Source of the DNA: Desulfobulbaceae bacterium
GTDB lineage: Bacteria > Desulfobacterota > Desulfobulbia > Desulfobulbales > Desulfocapsaceae
DNA: 44,784 bases
Reading direction: 5' to 3'
Assembly: GCA_004796425.1 (NCBI GenBank)
Contig: QZLB01000258.1
Coordinates: 1 to 44,784 of the forward strand
Shown: piece by piece, positions 9,171 through 33,265 of the stretch
How the letters are laid out: the number at the start of each line of letters is the position of its first letter
Position numbering within the stretch: position 1 is the stretch's first letter
Translations under genes and position numbers: made by a program
The notes under the pieces: generated by a model
Told to the model about the DNA's origin: nothing
What the model saw: only the letters and a program-made list of their open reading frames with translations
Database searches by the model: none

Positions 9171-10454
9171 TTACGGAACGCTGTAACCTTTCACCTTGTC
9201 CAAAACGGCATCATCGAGTGAAGCTCCTTCCATTTTTGCCCCTGTCAGATCCGCTCCGGTCAAATCAGCCTGATACAGGTCGGCTCCCCTGAGATCCGCA
9301 TTTCTCAAGTCAGCATTTACCAATAGCGCACCCTTGAGATTTGCTTCCTCCAGATCTGTACCAGCAAGTTTTGCATCGGTTAGATCTGCTCCTTCCAAAT
9401 CCGCTTTTTCAAGACTGAGGTCATTGAGAATCGCTCCACGCAAATTGCAATGGTAACATTTATTTTGCTCATCAAGTTTAGTAATTGATTGAGTTAATTG
9501 ATCATTAACAGCTGGTAAATCAACGGTTTTGGCGTCATTCTCAGATGCGATTTCCGCGGGTTGGTCGGTGGTATGCTCAGGGAACTCTTCGACGGAATCA
9601 GAAGGTGCCTCCACTTCTTTTTGAGTAGTTTCACGAATCACAGAATTCTTGATTTCCTCCTCTTTATCATCCTCTTCTGGTTTTTCTCTTCTATCTGTAT
9701 ATTCAGAAAGTTGATCAGGCAATTCTTCTTTCAAAGATTCATGACTTTCAGCCATTTCATCTTCAGATTTCTCATCTTCAGAATGAAGCGCAGCAATCGT
9801 AACTGCTTTCAATGGTACGGCCTTTTTCGTCTGCCCCTGGTCAGTCTGCAGGAGCGCTGCAGATGGACCTTGTGAATCATCCTGGGATGAGGAAATTTTT
9901 TTGAGCGGGGGCGGTACGCTATCGAAATCTCTTCGCTTTGCAATTGCCACCTGGGGTTTTTCAGGAATATCTTTGGCTTTTGCGTCATTTGGTACATAAT
10001 GGGTGCTTTCGACAGCTGCCAGTTGACCTTCTGCTGAATCACTCAGTTGGGTAAAATTCCCGTCAATTATCGCTCCTGCAAGGTATGCTCCGGTAATTTC
10101 AGCACCACGCAAGTCGGCCCCTGTCAGATTTGCATTTGCCAGGTCAGCACCTCCAAACTGAGCACCACGAAGTATTGCCCCTGAAAAATCTGCCTCAGAA
10201 AGGTCGGCAAGAAAAAACGTTGCGTTGCTCAAGTCTGCACCTTTTAAAATCACACCCGTAAGGTCCATCCTGTTTAGATTTGCCTGATTGAGATTACACT
10301 TCTCACAACTACGATCGGCAAGCAAACGAGTGATGTTTTCTTTTACCTCAACACTCATCTCAGAAAAAACAGGACTTGGAGAAAGCCATACAAGCATTAC
10401 ACAACTGGTCCAGATTAATTGTTTGATCACATTGGGATAGGTAGTTATTTTCAT
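9171..10454 (-). CDS. Exported pentapeptide-repeat protein with two CxxC-capped blocks
   Basis: A signal peptide or N-terminal anchor (about 1-32, hydrophobic 12-30, V-F-S-E cleavage-like) precedes two blocks of A(D/N)LxG-type repeats. Block one is about 50-133 and block two about 333-420. Each opens with the same cap, C-x-x-C-N-L (C50/C53 and C333/C336), and then forms a right-handed quadrilateral beta-helix by family knowledge. Between them lies an acidic, Ser/Glu-rich, probably disordered linker of about 190 residues. The function is unknown. Pentapeptide proteins are usually binding or scaffold elements, and the signal implies an extracytoplasmic site. It is on the minus strand, 26 bases downstream of the nuclease-like gene and probably co-transcribed with it. 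Confidence 0.85.
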   Translation of the reverse strand: MKITTYPNVIKQLIWTSCVMLVWLSPSPVFSEMSVEVKENITRLLADRSCEKCNLNQANLNRMDLTGVILKGADLSNATFFLADLSEADFSGAILRGAQFGGADLANANLTGADLRGAEITGAYLAGAIIDGNFTQLSDSAEGQLAAVESTHYVPNDAKAKDIPEKPQVAIAKRRDFDSVPPPLKKISSSQDDSQGPSAALLQTDQGQTKKAVPLKAVTIAALHSEDEKSEDEMAESHESLKEELPDQLSEYTDRREKPEEDDKEEEIKNSVIRETTQKEVEAPSDSVEEFPEHTTDQPAEIASENDAKTVDLPAVNDQLTQSITKLDEQNKCYHCNLRGAILNDLSLEKADLEGADLTDAKLAGTDLEEANLKGALLVNADLRNADLRGADLYQADLTGADLTGAKMEGASLDDAVLDKVKGYSVP

Positions 10455-10480: not shown

Positions 10481-11131
10481 CTATTGGTGTTTTCTTTTCC
10501 AAACCCAGGGCGGTACGGGACTCTTGTCACTGAACAATCCCGTGCCATCCTGGCGCGCCTGAAGCTCAAGCTCTTTCCATACCTCACAAATTGGTTCATG
10601 ACAATAATATATATGTACCCAGGCGGCACCTTTCTGAATCTGTTTTTGATTGATATTCTCTCCTTCGCCCGAATACACCATGGCAACGATTCGCCCATAC
10701 CGATCGTAATCTATCGGCCTTATCAAGACTTCTCGCTTAGCGATAAGATGTTTCAAACTATTTCTGGCAAAGCGTGCATAGGATTGCTGCTTTTCCGGTG
10801 CATCGATCCCATATAACCTGATGTTTACCTGTTTTCCTTTTATGATACCCACAAACGAATCTCCGTCGAAAACATGAGAAACCTCACAAGTCATACGTTG
10901 GGCCTGTAATGCGCATACCTGGCTTGCGCTACAAGTAAAGACCACGATACTCATTAGAAGTACTATCCGGCACCAGAACAATAATGTCCTGTCACTATAT
11001 CGGTAATAATTTGCTGAGTTGAACACGGCAAACTTCAGAGGTGTGTCATATTTATGAATTTTCTCTACCATGGGAAAAAATTTTACCCCCATGGTACTCG
11101 AGACTATTTTTATGAATCCATAAATAATCAT
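10481..11131 (-). CDS. Thermonuclease (SNase/TNase)-like protein with N-terminal membrane segment
   Basis: The 216-residue frame has a hydrophobic segment at about 49-69 that may be a signal-anchor or an uncleaved signal, then an SNase domain (about 80-208). Visible catalytic-type residues are the F-D-G-D-S calcium-site aspartates (89-91), R105 in N-I-R-L-Y-G-I-D-A-P-E with D110/E113, and R147 in D-R-Y-G-R. They match staphylococcal nuclease Arg35/Asp40/Glu43/Arg87 in order. The likely role is calcium-dependent cleavage of DNA or RNA outside the cytoplasm. The start is uncertain: ATG 11131 has AAAGGA four bases upstream, but the first ~48 residues before the membrane segment look unusual. Other in-frame ATGs lie at residues 14 and 21. 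Confidence 0.85.
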   Translation of the reverse strand: MIIYGFIKIVSSTMGVKFFPMVEKIHKYDTPLKFAVFNSANYYRYSDRTLLFWCRIVLLMSIVVFTCSASQVCALQAQRMTCEVSHVFDGDSFVGIIKGKQVNIRLYGIDAPEKQQSYARFARNSLKHLIAKREVLIRPIDYDRYGRIVAMVYSGEGENINQKQIQKGAAWVHIYYCHEPICEVWKELELQARQDGTGLFSDKSPVPPWVWKRKHQ

Positions 11132-11764: not shown

Positions 11765-13249
11765 ATGCCTGTAAAACCTGCCATCGCACTCTGCTCTATC
11801 GAAAAGGATGATTTCCAAAAAATTTCGGAACACGTAGAAAAGGAATTCAGTGAATCTGAAATCAGCGTGGTTGAATTCAGTGCGATAAATTCGTTTGCAG
11901 CCGCTCACGAAACTTCTCTTATCATCCTCAAATGTCACGAGCAACAAAACGCTGCCATCAGAAAACAGATTGAAGATATCAAGATCAATCACCCAGACTC
12001 ACTTATTATCCTGTTGGTACCTCACGATAGATCTGATCTGATATCATTGGCACTTACCCTGCAGGTATTTTTTTTCTTATATACACCAATAGACGATCAT
12101 GAGCTTACCATAGCCTTGAACAGGGCACGTATACACCTGTCTCACAATGGCTCTGCTCCCAGGCTTAAACCAGCTGAAGGAGATAGAGCTGATGAATTTA
12201 TTGGTAATTGTGACAAGATGAAGCATCTTTTCATGCTCATTGATCGAATTGCCAAAGATGAGTATTCCACCGTGTTAATAAGAGGTGAATCAGGAACCGG
12301 CAAGGAACTTGTTGCGCGAGCGTTGCACAACCAAAGTAATCGAAGACTTAAAAACTTTGTCCCGGTAAATTGTGCCGCAATTCCTGATGAACTTCTGGAG
12401 AGTGAGTTGTTTGGTCATACGAAAGGTTCTTTCACCGGTGCGACTCAATCAAAACAGGGGAGAATTCAATATGCGGATGGTGGTACTCTATTTCTTGATG
12501 AAATTGGCGATATGAAACCCTCTCTTCAAGCCAAATTATTGCGCGTTTTGCAAGAAAAGGAGTTCGAACCGGTGGGATCCCTCAAACCCATACCGGTAGA
12601 TACCAGAATTGTTGCCGCGACTCATTGCAACCTTGAGGATCAAGTAAGAGATGGGGTTTTCAGGGAGGATCTCTATTATCGATTAAGTGTAATTCCTCTT
12701 GAAGTTCCCCCTTTGAGAGAGCGTCTCGATGATATCCCGCTGTTGCTGAAGAAATTTATCGATGCACACACCACAAAACGTGGTAGAGAAAAGATTGTTT
12801 TCTCGCCAGCCTCAATTTCAATACTGAAGCAGCACGAATGGCGCGGTAATGTTCGAGAACTAGAAAACCTGGTACAGCACATGTCGATTCTTTATGGTGG
12901 TAAACATATCCACCCCCATGACCTGCCGGAGAAATATACCGGAAACATCACTTCACCTGAGTTAAATGCACAATCCACTCCACCAAAGCAGCAGTCAATC
13001 TTTGATCATTCAATGGAAAGAGCCGCCCTCACTGCCCCACCACCATCACCTGGAGCTGAAATTGATTTTGGCGATGGGCCGGTCGATTTTAATCAACTCA
13101 TTAACGATTTCGAGAAAGAATTGATTATCAAGGCAATGAACGTAACATCCGGAAATAAGAAAGAGGCTGCTCGAATATTAAGCCTCAAGCGAACCACCCT
13201 CCTGGAGAAAATCAAAAAGAAGAACCTGAACGGTACCTGGGATCATTAA
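11765..13249 (+). CDS. Sigma-54-dependent activator with degenerate receiver (FleQ-like)
   Basis: This bacterial enhancer-binding protein drives open-complex formation by RpoN polymerase. Residues 1-125 look like a receiver fold that lost its phospho-acceptor: the strand S-L-I-I-L-K-C-H has Lys/Cys where Asp is expected, and Thr (Y-T-P) replaces the conserved Lys. The AAA+ domain (about 145-375) has Walker A GESGTGK (174-180), the sigma-54 contact loop GSFTGA (221-226, Ser for the usual Ala), Walker B L-F-L-D-E-I-G-D (242-249), the arginine-finger region F-R-E-D-L-Y-Y-R-L and W-R-G-N-V-R-E-L. A Fis-type helix-turn-helix lies at about 450-490. Degenerate receiver plus flagellar neighbourhood resembles FleQ/FlrA master regulators. 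It converges on the CheX fusion gene with two bases between stops. Confidence 0.9.
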   Translation: MPVKPAIALCSIEKDDFQKISEHVEKEFSESEISVVEFSAINSFAAAHETSLIILKCHEQQNAAIRKQIEDIKINHPDSLIILLVPHDRSDLISLALTLQVFFFLYTPIDDHELTIALNRARIHLSHNGSAPRLKPAEGDRADEFIGNCDKMKHLFMLIDRIAKDEYSTVLIRGESGTGKELVARALHNQSNRRLKNFVPVNCAAIPDELLESELFGHTKGSFTGATQSKQGRIQYADGGTLFLDEIGDMKPSLQAKLLRVLQEKEFEPVGSLKPIPVDTRIVAATHCNLEDQVRDGVFREDLYYRLSVIPLEVPPLRERLDDIPLLLKKFIDAHTTKRGREKIVFSPASISILKQHEWRGNVRELENLVQHMSILYGGKHIHPHDLPEKYTGNITSPELNAQSTPPKQQSIFDHSMERAALTAPPPSPGAEIDFGDGPVDFNQLINDFEKELIIKAMNVTSGNKKEAARILSLKRTTLLEKIKKKNLNGTWDH

Positions 13250-13251
13250 TC

Positions 13252-15165
13252 TTACGCCGCAAGCTGCACTATATTATTCTCTATCTTCACCGCGACATCA
13301 TCGGCTGTTGCGGGTGTCAGGAGAATGTCTGTTACTCCGTATTTGACTGCTTTTATCACTTTCGTCCGAGTCCACTCGGCACCCGTTGCAATAATAGGCA
13401 GATTACAGGAGGTGCTCACTTTGATGGCCAAACCAAATGCCTGCTCATCCACGGCATTGGTAATGATAAAAACCGCTTTAAATGAACCAGGTAAAAACGC
13501 ATTGATGTTATCTCGGAAGCTGATCACACTGCTTGTGTAACCTTTTTCCTGAAGCACGCTGTTAACAAGATCGGCATCGCTTTGGGAATCGCTGATCAAC
13601 AGAATATCAGCATCGGACGTTTCTCCGGTTGGAGAGACCCGGCCGGGCACACCGCTTGAGTCACCACCTTCACTTTTCTGGGAAATTGAGGCTTCGACCG
13701 TAGGAGGTGCTTCAGCAGCCGACTCCCCAGTTGTTGCCAAACCCTGGAGTTGCAGCATGGCTGCAGGAAAAAGAATCTGTATTTTTCCATACTCATTACC
13801 ATCCATACTGAACTTCATACTACTCATATAGTAGTGCTGATCAGGCATCGGCGTTTCTGAGCTGATGTCTACTTTCATCGGCACAATCTGCTCGATTTCC
13901 TTTTTTATAAACCTGATGGACTTGGTGTACTGCTCTTCGAACACTGCCGTATAAACACCAGAGATAATATTGGCTATTTCACCATAAGCGTCTTCGGCAT
14001 CGACATTGAAATCTTCTTCTGATACCGCTGTCTCTAACTCACTTGGGGGCAACATGATAAGGGTCGATCCGATGCGAATCGCATCCCTGAGCCCTATATA
14101 CAAGAAACTTCGATCTTCAAGCTCGCCAACAACGTCAAAATAAGCCACGACCTGCTTTCCAGATGCTTCATCAAAGAAGAATGTCTCCTTATCAACGATT
14201 CGATTATCTATATCGCTACACGTAACTTCGACTCCGAGCATTGCCCCAACTTCCTCTTCTATCGTCTGCCTGCAGATTTCAAGAAGGGAATCCACCCGCT
14301 TTTTCTGTTTCTCTGTGTCAACGCTTGATACTGCTGGTTCAGGTGCGGTTTCCTGTGGTGAAGACGGTGGTGCTGCCTCTGCTGCAGCGGATGATTCGAT
14401 ATTATCTGAGGGAGGTGTGTGCTCTGCAGCAATCGGTTCTACTGTGGATTGCTCATCCGGTGAAGCTGACTGATCTGATTGTTCGTTAGTTTCTGGTTCA
14501 GCAGGTGTTTCGGTTTGACTCTCTGTTTCTTGCTGAGCTTCTGGTGCGGGACTTTCAGCTGGTTCATCCGTCTGCTCTTGTGGAATTGTTTCAGGTTCGA
14601 CGAGTTGGAATGGAAGGGCTGGAATCAAAAACACCATATCGCCAATTTCAGTATCATCAAGGGTCAGACCCGCAGTAACCTGATAATACATCTCGTTCGG
14701 AATTGGCTCATCGGATTCGATATCTACTTTGATCGGAACCAGAACCTGTTGTTCTTTTCGGATAAACCTGCATCCCTTGGGATACATTTCCTCAAACGTC
14801 TTAGTATATGAGCCGGCAATTATGTTGGCGATTTCCCCATAGGAATCTTCTGTCTCACCATCATAGTTTTCACTGGCAACCACCTCTTCGAGTTCCGAAG
14901 GAGGTAACATAATCAGTGTGCCGCCAAGCCGAATTGCATCTTTTACAGAAATAAGCAGACCGCCAACCCCCTCCAGATCACCAGCCAACTCCATAATGGC
15001 GAAAACCTGTTTGGCCATGGGCTGGTCAAAAAAATCCTCTTTTGATACCAGCTCGGATGGTCGATTGGTCAGGGTGAGTTCAGCACCGATCAAACCACCA
15101 ACTTCTTCCTGTATACGTTGATGAGCCGCCTCGAGGATTTTGTCAATTCTTTGTCTTTCTTTCAT
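13252..15165 (-). CDS. Tandem CheX-like phosphatase protein with C-terminal pseudoreceiver
   Basis: The 637-residue protein has two homologous CheX/CheC-like domains, about 1-190 and 285-475, joined by a Pro/Glu/Gln/Ser linker (190-283). Each carries the phosphatase signature Y-G-E-I-A-N-I-I (E111/N114 and E396/N399) and the shared segment S-T/G-T-L-I-M-L-P-P-S-E-L-E. In CheC/CheX/FliY the Glu and Asn of E-x-x-N act on CheY-P. A second low-complexity linker (about 478-517) leads to a receiver-like domain (518-637) lacking the phospho-acceptor Asp (F-I-I-T-N) and the conserved Lys (L-L-T-P). The start at 15165 fits the length of the first domain. A sigma-28-like promoter lies at 15201-15227. 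The likely role is CheY-P dephosphorylation or scaffolding. Confidence 0.85.
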   Translation of the reverse strand: MKERQRIDKILEAAHQRIQEEVGGLIGAELTLTNRPSELVSKEDFFDQPMAKQVFAIMELAGDLEGVGGLLISVKDAIRLGGTLIMLPPSELEEVVASENYDGETEDSYGEIANIIAGSYTKTFEEMYPKGCRFIRKEQQVLVPIKVDIESDEPIPNEMYYQVTAGLTLDDTEIGDMVFLIPALPFQLVEPETIPQEQTDEPAESPAPEAQQETESQTETPAEPETNEQSDQSASPDEQSTVEPIAAEHTPPSDNIESSAAAEAAPPSSPQETAPEPAVSSVDTEKQKKRVDSLLEICRQTIEEEVGAMLGVEVTCSDIDNRIVDKETFFFDEASGKQVVAYFDVVGELEDRSFLYIGLRDAIRIGSTLIMLPPSELETAVSEEDFNVDAEDAYGEIANIISGVYTAVFEEQYTKSIRFIKKEIEQIVPMKVDISSETPMPDQHYYMSSMKFSMDGNEYGKIQILFPAAMLQLQGLATTGESAAEAPPTVEASISQKSEGGDSSGVPGRVSPTGETSDADILLISDSQSDADLVNSVLQEKGYTSSVISFRDNINAFLPGSFKAVFIITNAVDEQAFGLAIKVSTSCNLPIIATGAEWTRTKVIKAVKYGVTDILLTPATADDVAVKIENNIVQLAA

Positions 15166-15200
15166 GGAAATGGTTTTTAAAAATTGAGGTTGTTACCATT

Positions 15201-15227
15201 ATATCGGCTCAGAATATCAATACATTA
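15201..15227 (-). promoter_or_regulatory. Sigma-28 (FliA)-type promoter for the CheX fusion gene
   Basis: On the minus strand TAAT (15227-15224), exactly 15 bases, then GCCGATAT (15208-15201). This compares with the enterobacterial FliA consensus TAAA-N15-GCCGATAA: one mismatch in each element. The -10 element ends 35 bases before the ATG at 15165. Confidence 0.65.
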
Positions 15228-15310
15228 GGTCTTATAATAAAATAGCGGCTGAGTACTGCTCATAAAGATCAATTTTCTGTCTGTCTTTTCATAGCAATAA
15301 CCGTACCCAT

Positions 15311-15350
15311 AAAAAATGAGGTTCCAAAGAACACTCTGAAACCCCATTTT
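15311..15350 (-). terminator. Rho-independent terminator after cheX
   Basis: Arms 15350-15337 and 15326-15313 pair at 12 of 14 positions around a 10-base loop, and on the minus strand the hairpin runs into six T's (15316-15311). It separates the cheY-cheX transcript from the downstream CheX fusion gene. Confidence 0.7.
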
Positions 15351-15392
15351 GCATACTGCAACAATCTGTTGAGACTGCAACGACGGTAGAAA

Positions 15393-15848
15393 TTATGCTT
15401 CCAGTTGAATCTCTATGATAAAGCCACCTCCGTCAGTATCAAAAATGATGACTTCCCGTTCAGCATTTTTCAGGGACTGAAAATCATATTCTTTTCCAGA
15501 AATTGTGGTCGGCAACGATAAATCGATATCCTTTCCACTATCAGATAGAATTGTTTTAAGGTTCCCTCCAAGCATATTGGCGATTTCTCCAATTGCATCT
15601 TCTACGTCCTCATTCATGCTGTCGACGTCAATGCCCAGGAAACTTCCGGTAATCTTAAAGGCGATTGATTCGGGCATATGAATCGCAAGTACGCCCTTGA
15701 CCTTACCGGCAAGACCGATCACTCCTGAAATAGAGTTGCTGTGTAATCTCGGCTCCTGATCTTGAATTTCAGAAGGTGAGACCTCCATCATCACCATGGT
15801 CGTGAATATTTCATTGGTCGATTCAATAACTTGATCTCTTATACTCAC
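15393..15848 (-). CDS. cheX: CheY-P phosphatase CheX
   Basis: CheX dephosphorylates CheY-P and so resets the motor signal. The 151-residue protein is one CheX domain of typical length, with the signature E-D-A-I-G-E-I-A-N-M-L-G-G (catalytic-type E88 and N91). The gene follows cheY after 26 bases on the same strand, which pairs enzyme with substrate. Relative to the two domains of the nearby 637-residue protein it is shorter and clearly diverged, so the three domains are not recent copies. A terminator follows at 15311-15350. Confidence 0.88.
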   Translation of the reverse strand: MSIRDQVIESTNEIFTTMVMMEVSPSEIQDQEPRLHSNSISGVIGLAGKVKGVLAIHMPESIAFKITGSFLGIDVDSMNEDVEDAIGEIANMLGGNLKTILSDSGKDIDLSLPTTISGKEYDFQSLKNAEREVIIFDTDGGGFIIEIQLEA

Positions 15849-15874: not shown

Positions 15875-16246
15875 CTAAAGTAATGGCCCCAGTACTTCGT
15901 TTACTTTATCAGGTGTGAATGGTTTTTTAATCGCCCCAACTGCGCCCAGCGATTTTGCCTCTCCGATGATATCTTCGCCGGTTTCGGTAGAGATCATGAG
16001 CACCGGTATGTCCTTGATGTGATCTCTTCCCGATTTCTCTCTCAAAAATGAAATTCCATCCATGTTTGGCATGTTGATATCACTCAGCACAATATCGACA
16101 CTTTCATTTTCAAGAACTTCAAGGGCTTCCACACCATCCGCTGCCTCAAATATGTTATCAAACGCGATTCCTGCCTGGCGCAGTGACCTGCCTATGATTT
16201 TCCTCATGGTACTGGAATCATCTACGAGAAGAACATTTTTTCCCAT
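15875..16246 (-). CDS. cheY: Chemotaxis response regulator CheY
   Basis: The 123-residue stand-alone receiver has D9/D10, phospho-acceptor D56 in L-S-D-I-N-M-P-N-M-D-G, S86 in the Thr/Ser position, and K108 before the conserved Pro. Phosphorylated CheY binds the FliM N-terminus and alters rotation. A strong AGGAGG lies six bases before the ATG. It is not in the cheA operon and is instead paired with cheX on the opposite strand. The receiver gene at 8583 and the CheA receiver are alternative CheA targets, so which receiver reaches the motor is not proven here; this one is the best candidate. Confidence 0.88.
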   Translation of the reverse strand: MGKNVLLVDDSSTMRKIIGRSLRQAGIAFDNIFEAADGVEALEVLENESVDIVLSDINMPNMDGISFLREKSGRDHIKDIPVLMISTETGEDIIGEAKSLGAVGAIKKPFTPDKVNEVLGPLL

Positions 16247-16589: not shown

Positions 16590-18998
16590 ATGAAACGTAT
16601 TGTATTGATCACATTTTTACTTCTGCTGCTTGTTAACGATGGGTTTGCTTTGTCTACCTTAGACAAAATCAGCAGGTCTGCGGACAGGGATTCTGTGCAG
16701 GTATTTATGGGTTTTGATCAGCCACCCCGATATCGAAGCAAAATAACAGGAAAAAGACTTGATATAATATTGGAAAACACGCAGATAACGGAATCTTTTC
16801 AACCGATTTCAGAAGATGAGAAAGTCATAAAATTTCTGTATCGGAAGAAAAACAACTCTTTAGAACTCAGCTTCTTTTTCAGATACAACCCTCAACGTGT
16901 AACGGTTAAAACAGTTGATCGTTCCACTCTTGTCGCCGATATCCTGTTGGGCAACCGGTTCACCAAAACGTACCAGGAATTCTCAAATCGACTTCAAGGA
17001 GTAACACTGTTAAACCGTCCTGAAGTTAATTATGCAAATCCGCTTGTTTCTTCTCCGTATGCAGAGGACTGGTACAGTTTTTTTTCTGACTATGAGTCAG
17101 ATGTCACCATCACTGCCCCGGTTAATTTTTATATTCCGAATTTTCCATTCTCTGCGAGTCTTACGATTAATCAAGCAACGGGAAAATCATTTATAACCGA
17201 TGAGATTATGAGGTTAGCTCAAATCGAATCCTGGGATTTAATTCTGTCTCAATTAAAGTCTCAACTCTCTTCGGGGCGCACCTTAGATGAGCAGAAGCTC
17301 CTTGCGCTTATGTATGGTGAAACGCTTCTAAGAAGCAATAATTTTGATGGGGCCTACAAACAACTCTATTTACTCATTGAAAATTACCCCAATGAGCAGA
17401 TCAGCTTTTATTCGAGATACTTGCTCTCCTTGCTCATCGCCACGAATGGCGATCCTCATCAGGCAGAGTATAATTTAGCCTTGCTTGCTGAAGATTTAAA
17501 GAAAGGCAACATGTTAGAACCTTTCGTACAAATTTCTCAGGCAGAAATGTGTCTGGCCACCGGTCAGATCGAAAAGCTCAAAACCATTCTCACCCGCGAC
17601 AATATTGCCTATCCCGACCCACTGCAAAAAATTCGAGAACTTCGTCAAGCCGACCTGCTGTATGAGACGGGAGCAGACATTAAAGCTTATGTAACGTACA
17701 CGCTGCTCGAAGATGAATTGGCTTTAAGTGAGCACCCGTTTTCTCTGAATAGATTGTGTGCAATCTATTATGAGAAGAATGAATTTATAAAAGCTTCCCA
17801 GTGCTATGATCAACTTGCAGATCAACTTAATGAACGGGATCAGCTTGGACTTGCCTACTATCGTGCCGCCATGGCCAGGCTTAAATTCCAACAAACTGTA
17901 GAGCTTGTTGATGAGTTTGAACGTATCGAAGATGCCTTTCCAGGCACCGAGGCCGGATTTAGGGCGGCTTTGAAAAAAACTGACATTCGACTTCTTGAAC
18001 AGCCTACCTGGTCTGATACCGCGTTGAAATATTATCGAGCCCTCGCGGAAAAATCTATCTATCGGCCGGTCAGTGAGGAGGCGTACTTCAAAGAAGCTCT
18101 TCTTTATCACCTCCTTGCCGATGACACGAAAAGTATAGAACTACTTATGACATTGCTCAGAAATTTCAGGAGCGGAAGTTTTCTATCAAATCCGGAAGCC
18201 TTACTTGTGCAACTGCTTCCACGGGAACTTACCAGACTTGTTTCTGAAAAAACCTATGATGAAGCATTAGTTCTCGCCCAACAGAATCGTAGATTATTTG
18301 ATAACAACTGGATTGATTTGAAGATTCTATCCGAGCTTGCTTTTTCATATCGCCAACTGGGAATTTTTGATGATGCGATGCGACTGTATCTTTACCTCAT
18401 TGAAATCGCTAACCTCGAGGAGAAAGAGCAGTATTTCATTAAACTCGCTGAAATTGCGTATGAAAAAGGTGATTATGGTTTGGTAGAAGACTTTTCAACC
18501 CAGTATTCATATAACTATCCTGCAGGTCAATATGAACTTGATATGCTTTATTTGCGGTTGAAAGTTCTCGATAACCTGGACAAGACCGATGAGGCACTCG
18601 CACTTCTTCCCAACAACTTCAATGACCAGAAACGTTTCGCCTATCTGGCAGCTGCACTGCGTTTCAAAAATAACCAGTACCGTGAAGTTATCGATCTTGC
18701 AACACAATACCAGCCTGCCGAGTTGAGCACATTACCAGAAGAACAACTCTTTTTTCTGGCCGAGAGTTATTTTCAACTCGGTCAATTTGAAGAGTCTGCC
18801 ACCTATTTTTCTAGGGTAAAAGACAATCAGCGGTTTAGTGGCCAATCTCTGTTCCGGCTTGCTGAGATCTCTGAGTCAAATGGCAAGGAGACAGAGGCGT
18901 TGGAACTCTACCGTGAAATCGTTTCAGGCGACTCGGATGAACTCTGGAAACGATATGCTCAAAGAGAACTGCAACTACAATCACTCACTGAGAATTAG
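16590..18998 (+). CDS. Exported TPR protein heading the flagellar operon
   Basis: A clear signal peptide (1-21, ending D-G-F-A-L-S) implies export to the periplasm or outer membrane. Residues about 25-125 are beta-rich and might be AMIN-like (a peptidoglycan/secretin-associated fold), though the similarity is weak. From about 205 to the end the protein is almost wholly helical with tetratricopeptide-type repeats; recurring Y-x-x-G/A-x-Y/F pairs are visible at about 255-330, 395-440, 595-660 and 720-800. AGGTGA precedes the ATG, and a sigma-54 promoter lies just upstream. The stop is nine bases before flgB, so it is co-transcribed with rod genes. A role in placing or assembling the envelope part of the flagellum is plausible but inferred. 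Confidence 0.8.
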   Translation: MKRIVLITFLLLLLVNDGFALSTLDKISRSADRDSVQVFMGFDQPPRYRSKITGKRLDIILENTQITESFQPISEDEKVIKFLYRKKNNSLELSFFFRYNPQRVTVKTVDRSTLVADILLGNRFTKTYQEFSNRLQGVTLLNRPEVNYANPLVSSPYAEDWYSFFSDYESDVTITAPVNFYIPNFPFSASLTINQATGKSFITDEIMRLAQIESWDLILSQLKSQLSSGRTLDEQKLLALMYGETLLRSNNFDGAYKQLYLLIENYPNEQISFYSRYLLSLLIATNGDPHQAEYNLALLAEDLKKGNMLEPFVQISQAEMCLATGQIEKLKTILTRDNIAYPDPLQKIRELRQADLLYETGADIKAYVTYTLLEDELALSEHPFSLNRLCAIYYEKNEFIKASQCYDQLADQLNERDQLGLAYYRAAMARLKFQQTVELVDEFERIEDAFPGTEAGFRAALKKTDIRLLEQPTWSDTALKYYRALAEKSIYRPVSEEAYFKEALLYHLLADDTKSIELLMTLLRNFRSGSFLSNPEALLVQLLPRELTRLVSEKTYDEALVLAQQNRRLFDNNWIDLKILSELAFSYRQLGIFDDAMRLYLYLIEIANLEEKEQYFIKLAEIAYEKGDYGLVEDFSTQYSYNYPAGQYELDMLYLRLKVLDNLDKTDEALALLPNNFNDQKRFAYLAAALRFKNNQYREVIDLATQYQPAELSTLPEEQLFFLAESYFQLGQFEESATYFSRVKDNQRFSGQSLFRLAEISESNGKETEALELYREIVSGDSDELWKRYAQRELQLQSLTEN

Positions 18999-32278: not shown

Positions 32279-33265
32279 GTGGAACCGATTCTAACAAGAC
32301 AGGAAATTGACGATCTCCTTCAAGCAATTCGAGAAGGTAAAATATCAACTGATGTCGGAGGAGACCTCGGCAGTGGTCAGCAGATTGATTTTAAGGAAAT
32401 CAATCTATTTCAGGTTTCCAGTCAGCGCGAAGATAAAATCAGGATTCCCAATTTTGATATCATTATCGATGCTTTTGCGCAAAACTACGCAATATCATTA
32501 TCAAATCACCTTCAGCGAAACTTTAGCATAACGAGAACTTCACTCGATTCAATGCCCTTTCAGGAGTATATGCTCTCGAAAAAGAATCCGGGATCAATCG
32601 GTGTACTCAATCTGTCACCACTCAAACATGGTGCTTTGATGCTTTTCGATCCCCAACTTTCGTTCTCCTTCATTGAGATCATGCTGGGTGCTTCGAGTGA
32701 CTTGGAAATTGTTCAACTCGATCGAAGCCTTACCAAAATTGAAATGACCGTACTGAAGGCGATTATGAGCAAAGCGGGAGATGATCTTGATCGAGCATTC
32801 AGGCCGATAACCAAGCTTGAAACCTCAATTCTCAAATTAGAAAACAATCCCCGTCTCGTTTCAATTACTGACCAAGAATCAGAAGTTATCATCAGCACAT
32901 TCAAGGTTTCGGTCGGCGAACAAAGTGGCACCATGGAAATGGTGTTTCCTCTGGCGACCCTTGACCCTTTTCGAGAAGAATTCAAAGATCTGATTAGTGT
33001 CAATACACTCAAACATGGCGGTTGGACCGATATCATTATAAAGGAAGTCCAGGATATGATGACGACCATCGTAGCCCAATCAGGTGTCGTTAATCTGTCG
33101 GTAGGCCAGGTCATGAATTTCAAGGTAGGCGATATAATTCCGGTCGATTATGACATTAATGGCAGTCTGAAAGTGCTGGTTGAGGAGAAACACAAATTTT
33201 TTGGGCAACCCGGACTGCTTAAAGGAAAGAAAGCAATCAGCCTGATTGCAACCATGAATGATTAA
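32279..33265 (+). CDS. fliM: Flagellar motor switch protein FliM
   Basis: FliM is the C-ring protein that receives CheY-P. The N-terminus carries the CheY-binding motif I-L-T-R-Q-E-I-D-D-L-L. The middle domain (about 40-230) is CheC-like, and the C-terminal SpoA-type domain (about 245-328) pairs with FliN. The start is GTG at 32279, which places the conserved N-terminal motif correctly; the ribosome site is weak. Length is 328 residues, as expected. It is 21 bases after fliL and 14 before fliN. Confidence 0.95.
   Translation: MEPILTRQEIDDLLQAIREGKISTDVGGDLGSGQQIDFKEINLFQVSSQREDKIRIPNFDIIIDAFAQNYAISLSNHLQRNFSITRTSLDSMPFQEYMLSKKNPGSIGVLNLSPLKHGALMLFDPQLSFSFIEIMLGASSDLEIVQLDRSLTKIEMTVLKAIMSKAGDDLDRAFRPITKLETSILKLENNPRLVSITDQESEVIISTFKVSVGEQSGTMEMVFPLATLDPFREEFKDLISVNTLKHGGWTDIIIKEVQDMMTTIVAQSGVVNLSVGQVMNFKVGDIIPVDYDINGSLKVLVEEKHKFFGQPGLLKGKKAISLIATMND

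Follow-up and report, generated by a model that had tools for sequence, protein, structure and literature searches.

A gene on the minus strand of contig QZLB01000258.1, from a Desulfobulbaceae bacterium, encodes a protein in which two domains of the CheX/CheC class are followed by a pseudoreceiver, which is a receiver fold minus key catalytic residues (PMC12632262). The window, as the term is used here, is the whole stretch of 44,784 nucleotides that was analysed. The gene and its parts are laid out as follows.

13252..15165, minus strand: coding sequence of the tandem CheX-pseudoreceiver protein, 637 amino acids, one open reading frame (ORF)
14587..15165, minus strand: CheX/CheC-class domain 1, residues 1-193 (alignment, fold and profile)
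14824..14835, minus strand: ExxN motif E111-I-A-N114 of domain 1, the catalytic-pair motif
14314..14586, minus strand: linker 1, acidic and rich in Pro, Ala and Gln, predicted disordered (predicted local distance difference test, pLDDT, mostly <50)
13732..14313, minus strand: CheX/CheC-class domain 2, residues 285-478 (alignment, fold and profile)
13969..13980, minus strand: ExxN motif E396-I-A-N399 of domain 2, the catalytic-pair motif
13609..13731, minus strand: linker 2, disordered in the structure prediction
13255..13608, minus strand: pseudoreceiver domain, residues 520-637 (fold prediction and residue counts)
13462..13464, minus strand: codon of I568, the phospho-Asp position, never Asp in 99 members
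13315..13317, minus strand: codon of T617, where receivers carry their conserved Lys
13312..13398, minus strand: residues 590-618, the 29 consecutive residues with the highest conservation in the folded domains (nine of them invariant in 99 members)

Frame 1 of the plus strand holds many stops across the same region, and scans of the region for sigma-70 promoters and terminators returned chance level only. The protein's own genome has one full-length match, and four further matches are weak and confined to the receiver part. In a structure model (AlphaFold2, 44 sequences) the three domains lie mostly above pLDDT 90 and the linkers, of ~90 and ~40 residues, mostly below 50; the placement of the domains relative to each other is not informative at the predicted template modelling score of 0.55.

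Domains 1 and 2 share 47% identity over 188 residues (E 2e-63) and are true tandem duplicates. Against PF13690 (CheX) the whole protein scores 34.8 bits, with a cut-off of 27, and the single domains taken separately score 19.8 and 19.7 bits, both under that cut-off. An earlier note on this DNA had pointed to two ExxN signatures in homologous domains, and both are indeed where it placed them, with E111/N114 and E396/N399 on long central helices (residues 103-127 and 388-412). Across the family the pair is intact in 201 of 211 CheX-class domains, and it is therefore not a chance motif; the Asn of the second domain is lost in L089. Each domain carries one ExxN and its first helix carries none, so the two sites of CheC are not both present. 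In hhalign comparisons the repeat matched the stand-alone CheX of the same loci with a probability of 94.7, higher than CheC (88.5), and FliM went undetected (2.7). The predicted single copy has the fold of the CheC/CheX/FliM clan (Foldseek, and VIA with Z about 17-20), as the note had expected of a structure prediction. By VIA it aligns with the FliM middle domain over 167 residues at 2.3 A (Z 20.2), and its neighbours also include FliY (Z 20.1) and CheC (Z 18.1); CheX is not among the 50 VIA entries listed, an absence that we do not use as evidence. Foldseek gave TM-scores by target of 0.58-0.68 for CheX entries and up to 0.81 for the FliM middle domain. Profile and fold together assign the repeat to the CheX/CheC class.

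A query with the single protein found no relative; with a 12-sequence alignment (A1), 147 of 164 stretches matched and 79 loci, from named genomes, were retained. Further loci came from family and phylum genome sets. Members of the family were found in sulfur-metabolising bacteria. The named genomes with loci include Desulfofustis, Desulfopila, Desulfocapsa, Desulfobulbus, Desulfogranum and others, and the protein is present among relatives with named cultured strains (Desulfofustis glycolicus, Desulfopila aestuarii, Desulfobulbus elongatus). The order CheX-CheX-receiver is real: among 119 distinct ORFs, 76 have two CheX domains and the receiver, 21 have three, 16 have one, three are receiver only and three CheX only. 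Contig ends truncate nine of the 119, including four of the one-CheX forms. The note knew of no described protein of this order. We likewise found no description of the CheX-CheX-pseudoreceiver architecture in the open-licence literature, but in sequence data it is widespread. A general treatment of pseudoreceivers does not mention CheX or CheC in its main text (PMC12632262), and the main texts of a signalling-protein census (PMC1183210) and an archaeal census (PMC5847659) contain neither CheC nor CheX as a whole word. Three oddities were met at the edges of the family. One three-CheX member (L061:3789-6299) reads as two ORFs, which may reflect a frameshift or an assembly error; a distant single-CheX-class protein elsewhere in the phylum (L154:1483-2646) ends in CBS domains; and distant single-CheX-class proteins in L151-L153 end in a receiver of another pattern, beside a CheY-like ORF.

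The third domain is a pseudoreceiver. Residues 520-636 are predicted to adopt the receiver fold (Z 15-17 to receiver structures), although the domain scores 14.3 bits against Pfam Response_reg, with a cut-off of 30.2, and BLASTP of the domain against the window's own CheY gave nothing significant. The note's reading of a receiver-like domain lacking the phospho-Asp and the Lys is borne out by the 99 aligned members. The phospho-Asp position (568) is V in 80, I in 13 and L in 6, and Asp in none; the receiver Thr position (595) is G in 83, A in 13 and S in 3; and the receiver Lys position (617) is T in 90 and Lys in none. One of the two receiver acidic residues is mostly retained (D 72, N 24). 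The register of the phospho-Asp position was taken from HMMER alignments; the MAFFT column lies ~3 residues off both these and the gapless match across beta3-alpha3 and was left unused, and the MAFFT columns for the Lys and acidic positions agree. In a wider set (n=116) the Lys is kept in six one-CheX members elsewhere in the phylum. Judged by these residues the domain is no phosphorylatable response regulator, the Asp, Thr/Ser and Lys positions all being lost. Two residues beyond the Lys position (K+2), 86 of the 99 members have Ala, 10 have Ser and three have Val, and none has Phe; Ala at K+2 favours the active state of CheY (PMC12632262).

Nine positions are invariant across the 99 ORFs (P590, W598, T599, A606, Y609, G610, D613, I614 and P618), and the same nine are invariant in profile A3, which comprises 23 diverse pseudoreceivers, of which nine belong to genomes that gave no CheW match. 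Profile A3 holds 23 of 25 excised pseudoreceivers and leaves out the distant L145 and L149. Both of these keep the W-T and Y-G pairs, and L149 has Glu at the invariant Asp; the nine positions are therefore not invariant in the widest set. At equal lengths, the best 29-residue window of the pseudoreceiver (590-618) reaches a mean identity of 0.72 in two-CheX proteins, as compared to 0.62 and 0.63 for the best such windows of the CheX domains. This stretch spans the beta4-alpha4 loop, alpha4 and beta5, which in CheY form part of the face that binds FliM.

The distribution of the protein also points to the flagellum. In f1, the window's own bacterial family (60 genomes), the protein is present in 47 of 47 genomes with FliM and in one of 13 without it. 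Seven of those 13 have a CheA match, and just one of the seven (G047) has the protein. The f1 calls were confirmed by the pseudoreceiver profile, with true members at or below 1.6e-31 and the next matches at or above 1.6e-12. Therefore, within f1 the protein tracks the flagellum rather than the kinase CheA. In a sample of the phylum, FliM was found in 24 of 24 genomes with a match to the protein, as compared to 239 of 390 overall. As an observation in its own right, the Pfam FliM score is about 64-131 bits in f1 and about 175-197 in most other families of the order; low-scoring FliM outside f1 was seen in G080, G089 and G092, which hold the protein, and in G062, which does not.

Twelve genomes with FliM hold the protein without a CheA match (11 in f1, and G080 in f12; five genera). 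CheA-less status was defined by CheA plus CheW because PF02895 alone can miss CheA. The CheW search covered 22 genomes (the 12, G024, G062 and eight CheA-positive controls), out of 51 genomes that hold the protein or, for G062, beside them; it found CheW in 0 of the 12 and in 8 of 8 controls. G062, with FliM but neither a PF02895 match nor the pseudoreceiver, had been considered as a counterexample and was dropped, having three CheW matches, one of them in a 795-residue frame, and one match to methyl-accepting chemotaxis protein (MCP) domains. A stand-alone CheX gave no match in ten of the 12, and the weak matches in G046 (2.1e-5) and G052 (9.8e-4) may be the tandem protein itself.

In most of these genomes the enzyme part of the protein is reduced, and the receiver part is retained. 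Asn is lost from both CheX domains in G011, G025, G036, G044 (its ExxN positions inspected by eye in the translated sequence) and G080; G050 has lost it from one of two copies and kept it in the other; and the only CheX of G002, G028 and G039 retains its ExxN. In G009 the pseudoreceiver follows ~130 residues without a profile match, which by eye resemble a CheX domain minus its central part. In G046 and G052, whose ORFs stop at contig ends, one CheX is visible and its ExxN is intact; ten of the 12 are therefore counted as reduced, and these two are set aside. Among the 39 genomes with both CheA and the protein there are two reduced forms, G024 and G092. G024 has the pseudoreceiver only, with a weak CheA match, no CheW match and one MCP match, and in G092 (L049) the reading frame is split at a stretch of N, which leaves the split itself uncertain. 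That the Asn or whole CheX copies went missing where neither CheA nor CheW was found fits an enzyme whose substrate has vanished.

FliM itself lies within the window.

32279..33265, plus strand: FliM, with an N-terminal peptide of the CheY-binding type, EPILTRQEIDDLL

All 12 CheA-less genomes retain such a peptide at the N-terminus of FliM (EPILSKQEIADLL and variants). Its mean pairwise identity there is 0.81, as compared to 0.39 elsewhere in FliM, and none of 311 other 13-column FliM windows is as conserved (maximum 0.61). In eight CheA-positive genomes the peptide stands at 0.74 against 0.49 for the rest, and 8 of 308 windows are at least as conserved; these are eight of ten, one having been excluded for a misread start and G059 for a visible peptide that was off-pattern. 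With neither CheA nor CheW the usual reason for keeping the peptide is gone. Some receiver-like ligand of FliM should remain in these genomes, and by its sequence the pseudoreceiver is a candidate.

The neighbours of the gene are chemotaxis and flagellar genes.

15393..15848, minus strand: stand-alone CheX gene, upstream (PF13690, 86.7 bits), a neighbour kept in named relatives
15875..16246, minus strand: CheY gene, the presumed substrate, with canonical active-site residues and Ser at the Thr position
11765..13249, plus strand: sigma-54 activator, the convergent neighbour, kept in relatives

Wherever a named locus reaches far enough upstream (63 of 63), cheY and at least one cheX lie just ahead of the gene (two cheX in 59, one in four), and the window, with its single cheX, belongs to the minority. 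In the 59 relatives the second stand-alone cheX sits between the first and the gene; the window has a gap of ~230 bases there (15165-15393). A convergent sigma-54 activator is found in 61 of 66 named loci with enough downstream sequence. The picture is different in CheA-less genomes, where the activator adjoins the gene in 12 of 12 loci while cheY and cheX are not beside it in any of the ten loci that extend upstream; in G024, too, these two are absent from beside the gene. Several other features of the neighbourhood were recorded. The first 130 residues of the activator (11765-12160) resemble by eye a degenerate receiver and may be a second pseudoreceiver, with no match to the receiver profile. 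A tetratricopeptide-repeat (TPR) protein (16590-18998) stands between cheY and flgB, and has the same place in most relatives, including loci from which cheY and cheX are missing. An ORF read by eye as nuclease-like (10481-11131) accompanies the flagellar locus in many relatives and a pentapeptide-repeat protein (9171-10454, Pfam) in some, fewer than the former. Lastly, in two Desulfobulbus-type loci (L163:6535-8472 and L112:2250-4220) an upstream ORF with HATPase and a weak Hpt, and no CheW match, could be a divergent kinase.

The explanation we favour, to which we would give about an even chance, is that the protein is a flagellum-associated CheY-P phosphatase whose pseudoreceiver docks it, independently of phosphorylation, at the flagellar switch and most likely at the N-terminus of FliM. 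One to three CheX/CheC-class domains on flexible linkers would hydrolyse phosphorylated CheY (CheY-P) by means of their Glu and Asn, and the unphosphorylatable C-terminal pseudoreceiver would serve as a constitutive docking module that contacts a flagellar component through its beta4-alpha4-beta5 side. The likeliest docking site would be the FliM N-terminal peptide, which is the binding site of CheY-P itself, although for this particular site we put the chance clearly below even. Phosphatase activity would in this way be concentrated at the switch, much as FliY achieves through its FliN domain, and lineages that have given up chemotaxis would retain the pseudoreceiver for a motor role of its own. 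The catalytic pair and the cheY-cheX neighbourhood suggest the phosphatase activity, and from the evidence above we infer motor binding, with FliM as the partner.

Several points weigh against this explanation. Over its full length the pseudoreceiver shows no more conservation than its CheX neighbours, with a mean pairwise identity of 0.467, as compared to 0.465 for CheX 1 and 0.457 for CheX 2, among 72 complete two-CheX proteins. Its alpha5 is less conserved than alpha4 and beta5, so that the FliM-binding face of CheY is matched in part. The FliM peptide was picked by pattern, which inflates its identity, and its retention could also be explained by an orphan CheY, should the CheA-less genomes have one. 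A pseudoreceiver docked on FliM in the manner of CheY-P would, moreover, compete with the substrate of its own enzyme. As to distribution, G047 (75% complete) holds the protein without a detected FliM, and most flagellated genomes of the phylum are without the protein; beyond f1, the majority of genomes in the order possess FliM, usually the higher-scoring type, but not the protein. MCP domains occur in one of the 12 CheA-less genomes (G028, three matches), and ExxN is intact in the visible CheX of five of them (G002, G028, G039, G046 and G052) and in one copy of G050; the enzyme part is therefore not simply dead there. Finally, many of the genomes are incomplete metagenome-assembled genomes (G080 is listed as 100% complete), and the genomes counted are not independent of one another, so that Fisher tests on the counts exaggerate significance.

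A possible though less probable variant would make the pseudoreceiver a permanently "on" mimic of CheY that sits on the FliM N-terminal peptide, taking the phosphatase to the switch in chemotactic cells and serving as a lone motor ligand where chemotaxis was lost. A pseudoreceiver that binds the FliM peptide would explain why the peptide is kept where CheA and CheW are missing. It is rather unlikely, in our judgement, that the pseudoreceiver instead couples the protein to the regulation of flagellar genes or to flagellar assembly, perhaps by way of the sigma-54 activator or the TPR protein, and does not bind the switch. Such a role would account for the co-occurrence with FliM equally well, and it draws on the persistence of the convergent activator both in named loci and beside the gene in every CheA-less locus, including those from which cheY and cheX are absent. 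However, the activator gene is convergent and not co-transcribed, the intact form has cheY and cheX beside it on its own strand, and this reading leaves unexplained why FliM keeps its peptide in genomes that lack CheA and CheW matches.

We find it similarly doubtful that the pseudoreceiver marks a cell pole or landmark protein and so brings the phosphatase close to a polar flagellum or array. The precedent is FrzS, whose pseudoreceiver localises through its output face without need of phosphorylation (PMC1974792), and the conserved stretch in our pseudoreceiver would suit such a role; but in f1 the protein follows FliM and not CheA, so the site would need to be flagellar. The earlier note had proposed that the pseudoreceiver either localises the protein or regulates its own CheX domains. 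The first half has gained indirect support from the FliM co-occurrence, the conservation and the FliM peptide. The second half, taken as a CheY mimic that binds the CheX domains of its own chain and thereby inhibits or gates them, now seems improbable. A CheY-like fold on a flexible tether could reach them, but the Glu of CheX forms a salt bridge with the receiver Lys (PMC3035606), and that Lys is Thr in 90 of the 99 members; moreover, the pseudoreceiver is conserved where CheX has lost its Asn or is undetectable.

The copy number of CheX bears on the note's further suggestion of a covalently fused dimer. In a tree of 68 chosen CheX domains the first copies of Desulfobulbales group together (99/98) and the last copies do so more weakly (85/72), and both copies of family f95 stand together (100/99). 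The middle copies of six three-copy proteins are divided, one branching with its own first copy (99/89) and five within the last-copy group. From these positions, copy number probably changed more than once. Although two copies are the commonest form (76/119) and the CheX of Borrelia is a homodimer (PMC3641820), a fused dimer is very unlikely given the members with three copies (21/119) or one (16/119, four of the 16 cut), the ~90 mostly disordered residues that separate the copies, a single-copy fold closest to the FliM middle domain, FliY and CheC, and middle copies that side with the first copy in only one protein of the six sampled and fall in the last-copy group in the other five.

A switch-docked phosphatase would matter in several respects. 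The site at which CheY-P is destroyed shapes chemotactic signalling, and the known tethers of CheY-P phosphatases are CheZ with CheA-short, CheC with CheD, and FliY. The family suggests a further tether, namely a dead receiver, and comes with a natural dissection: in lineages where no chemotaxis genes were detected, the enzyme part has been reduced and the receiver part retained. The means by which pseudoreceivers in bacteria are turned on or off "remain a mystery" (PMC12632262), and the pseudoreceiver described here offers a candidate ligand together with clear point mutants.

Among known systems, the best profile-profile match is CheX (PF13690; known from Thermotoga and Borrelia), compared here through the stand-alone CheX of the same loci, which shares the ExxN pair on a long helix. 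The domain of the present family differs from it in its length of about 193 residues rather than about 150, in being repeated one to three times and fused to a pseudoreceiver, and in that each copy by itself falls below the Pfam cut-off. CheC is of the same fold class (Z 18.1 to 1xkr; hhalign probability 88.5), but the family domain has one ExxN, whereas the nine CheC-like proteins in the hhalign comparison were chosen for two. FliY, a CheC-like domain joined to FliN, likewise combines a phosphatase-class domain and a flagellar anchor in one chain (Z 20.1, Thermotoga FliY); here the putative anchor is a pseudoreceiver rather than a FliN domain, and FliMN_C gave no match in the window protein at E up to 1. 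Similarly, FrzS of Myxococcus xanthus has a receiver without the phospho-Asp whose output face is used for localisation in a motility system (PMC1974792). In our protein, by contrast, the pseudoreceiver is C-terminal to phosphatase-class domains. We know of no CheX domains in FrzS. In the CheA-CheC/CheX fusions of Leptospirae, CheC or CheX is joined to another chemotaxis module (PMC10782961); there the partner is the kinase CheA, and here it is a pseudoreceiver.

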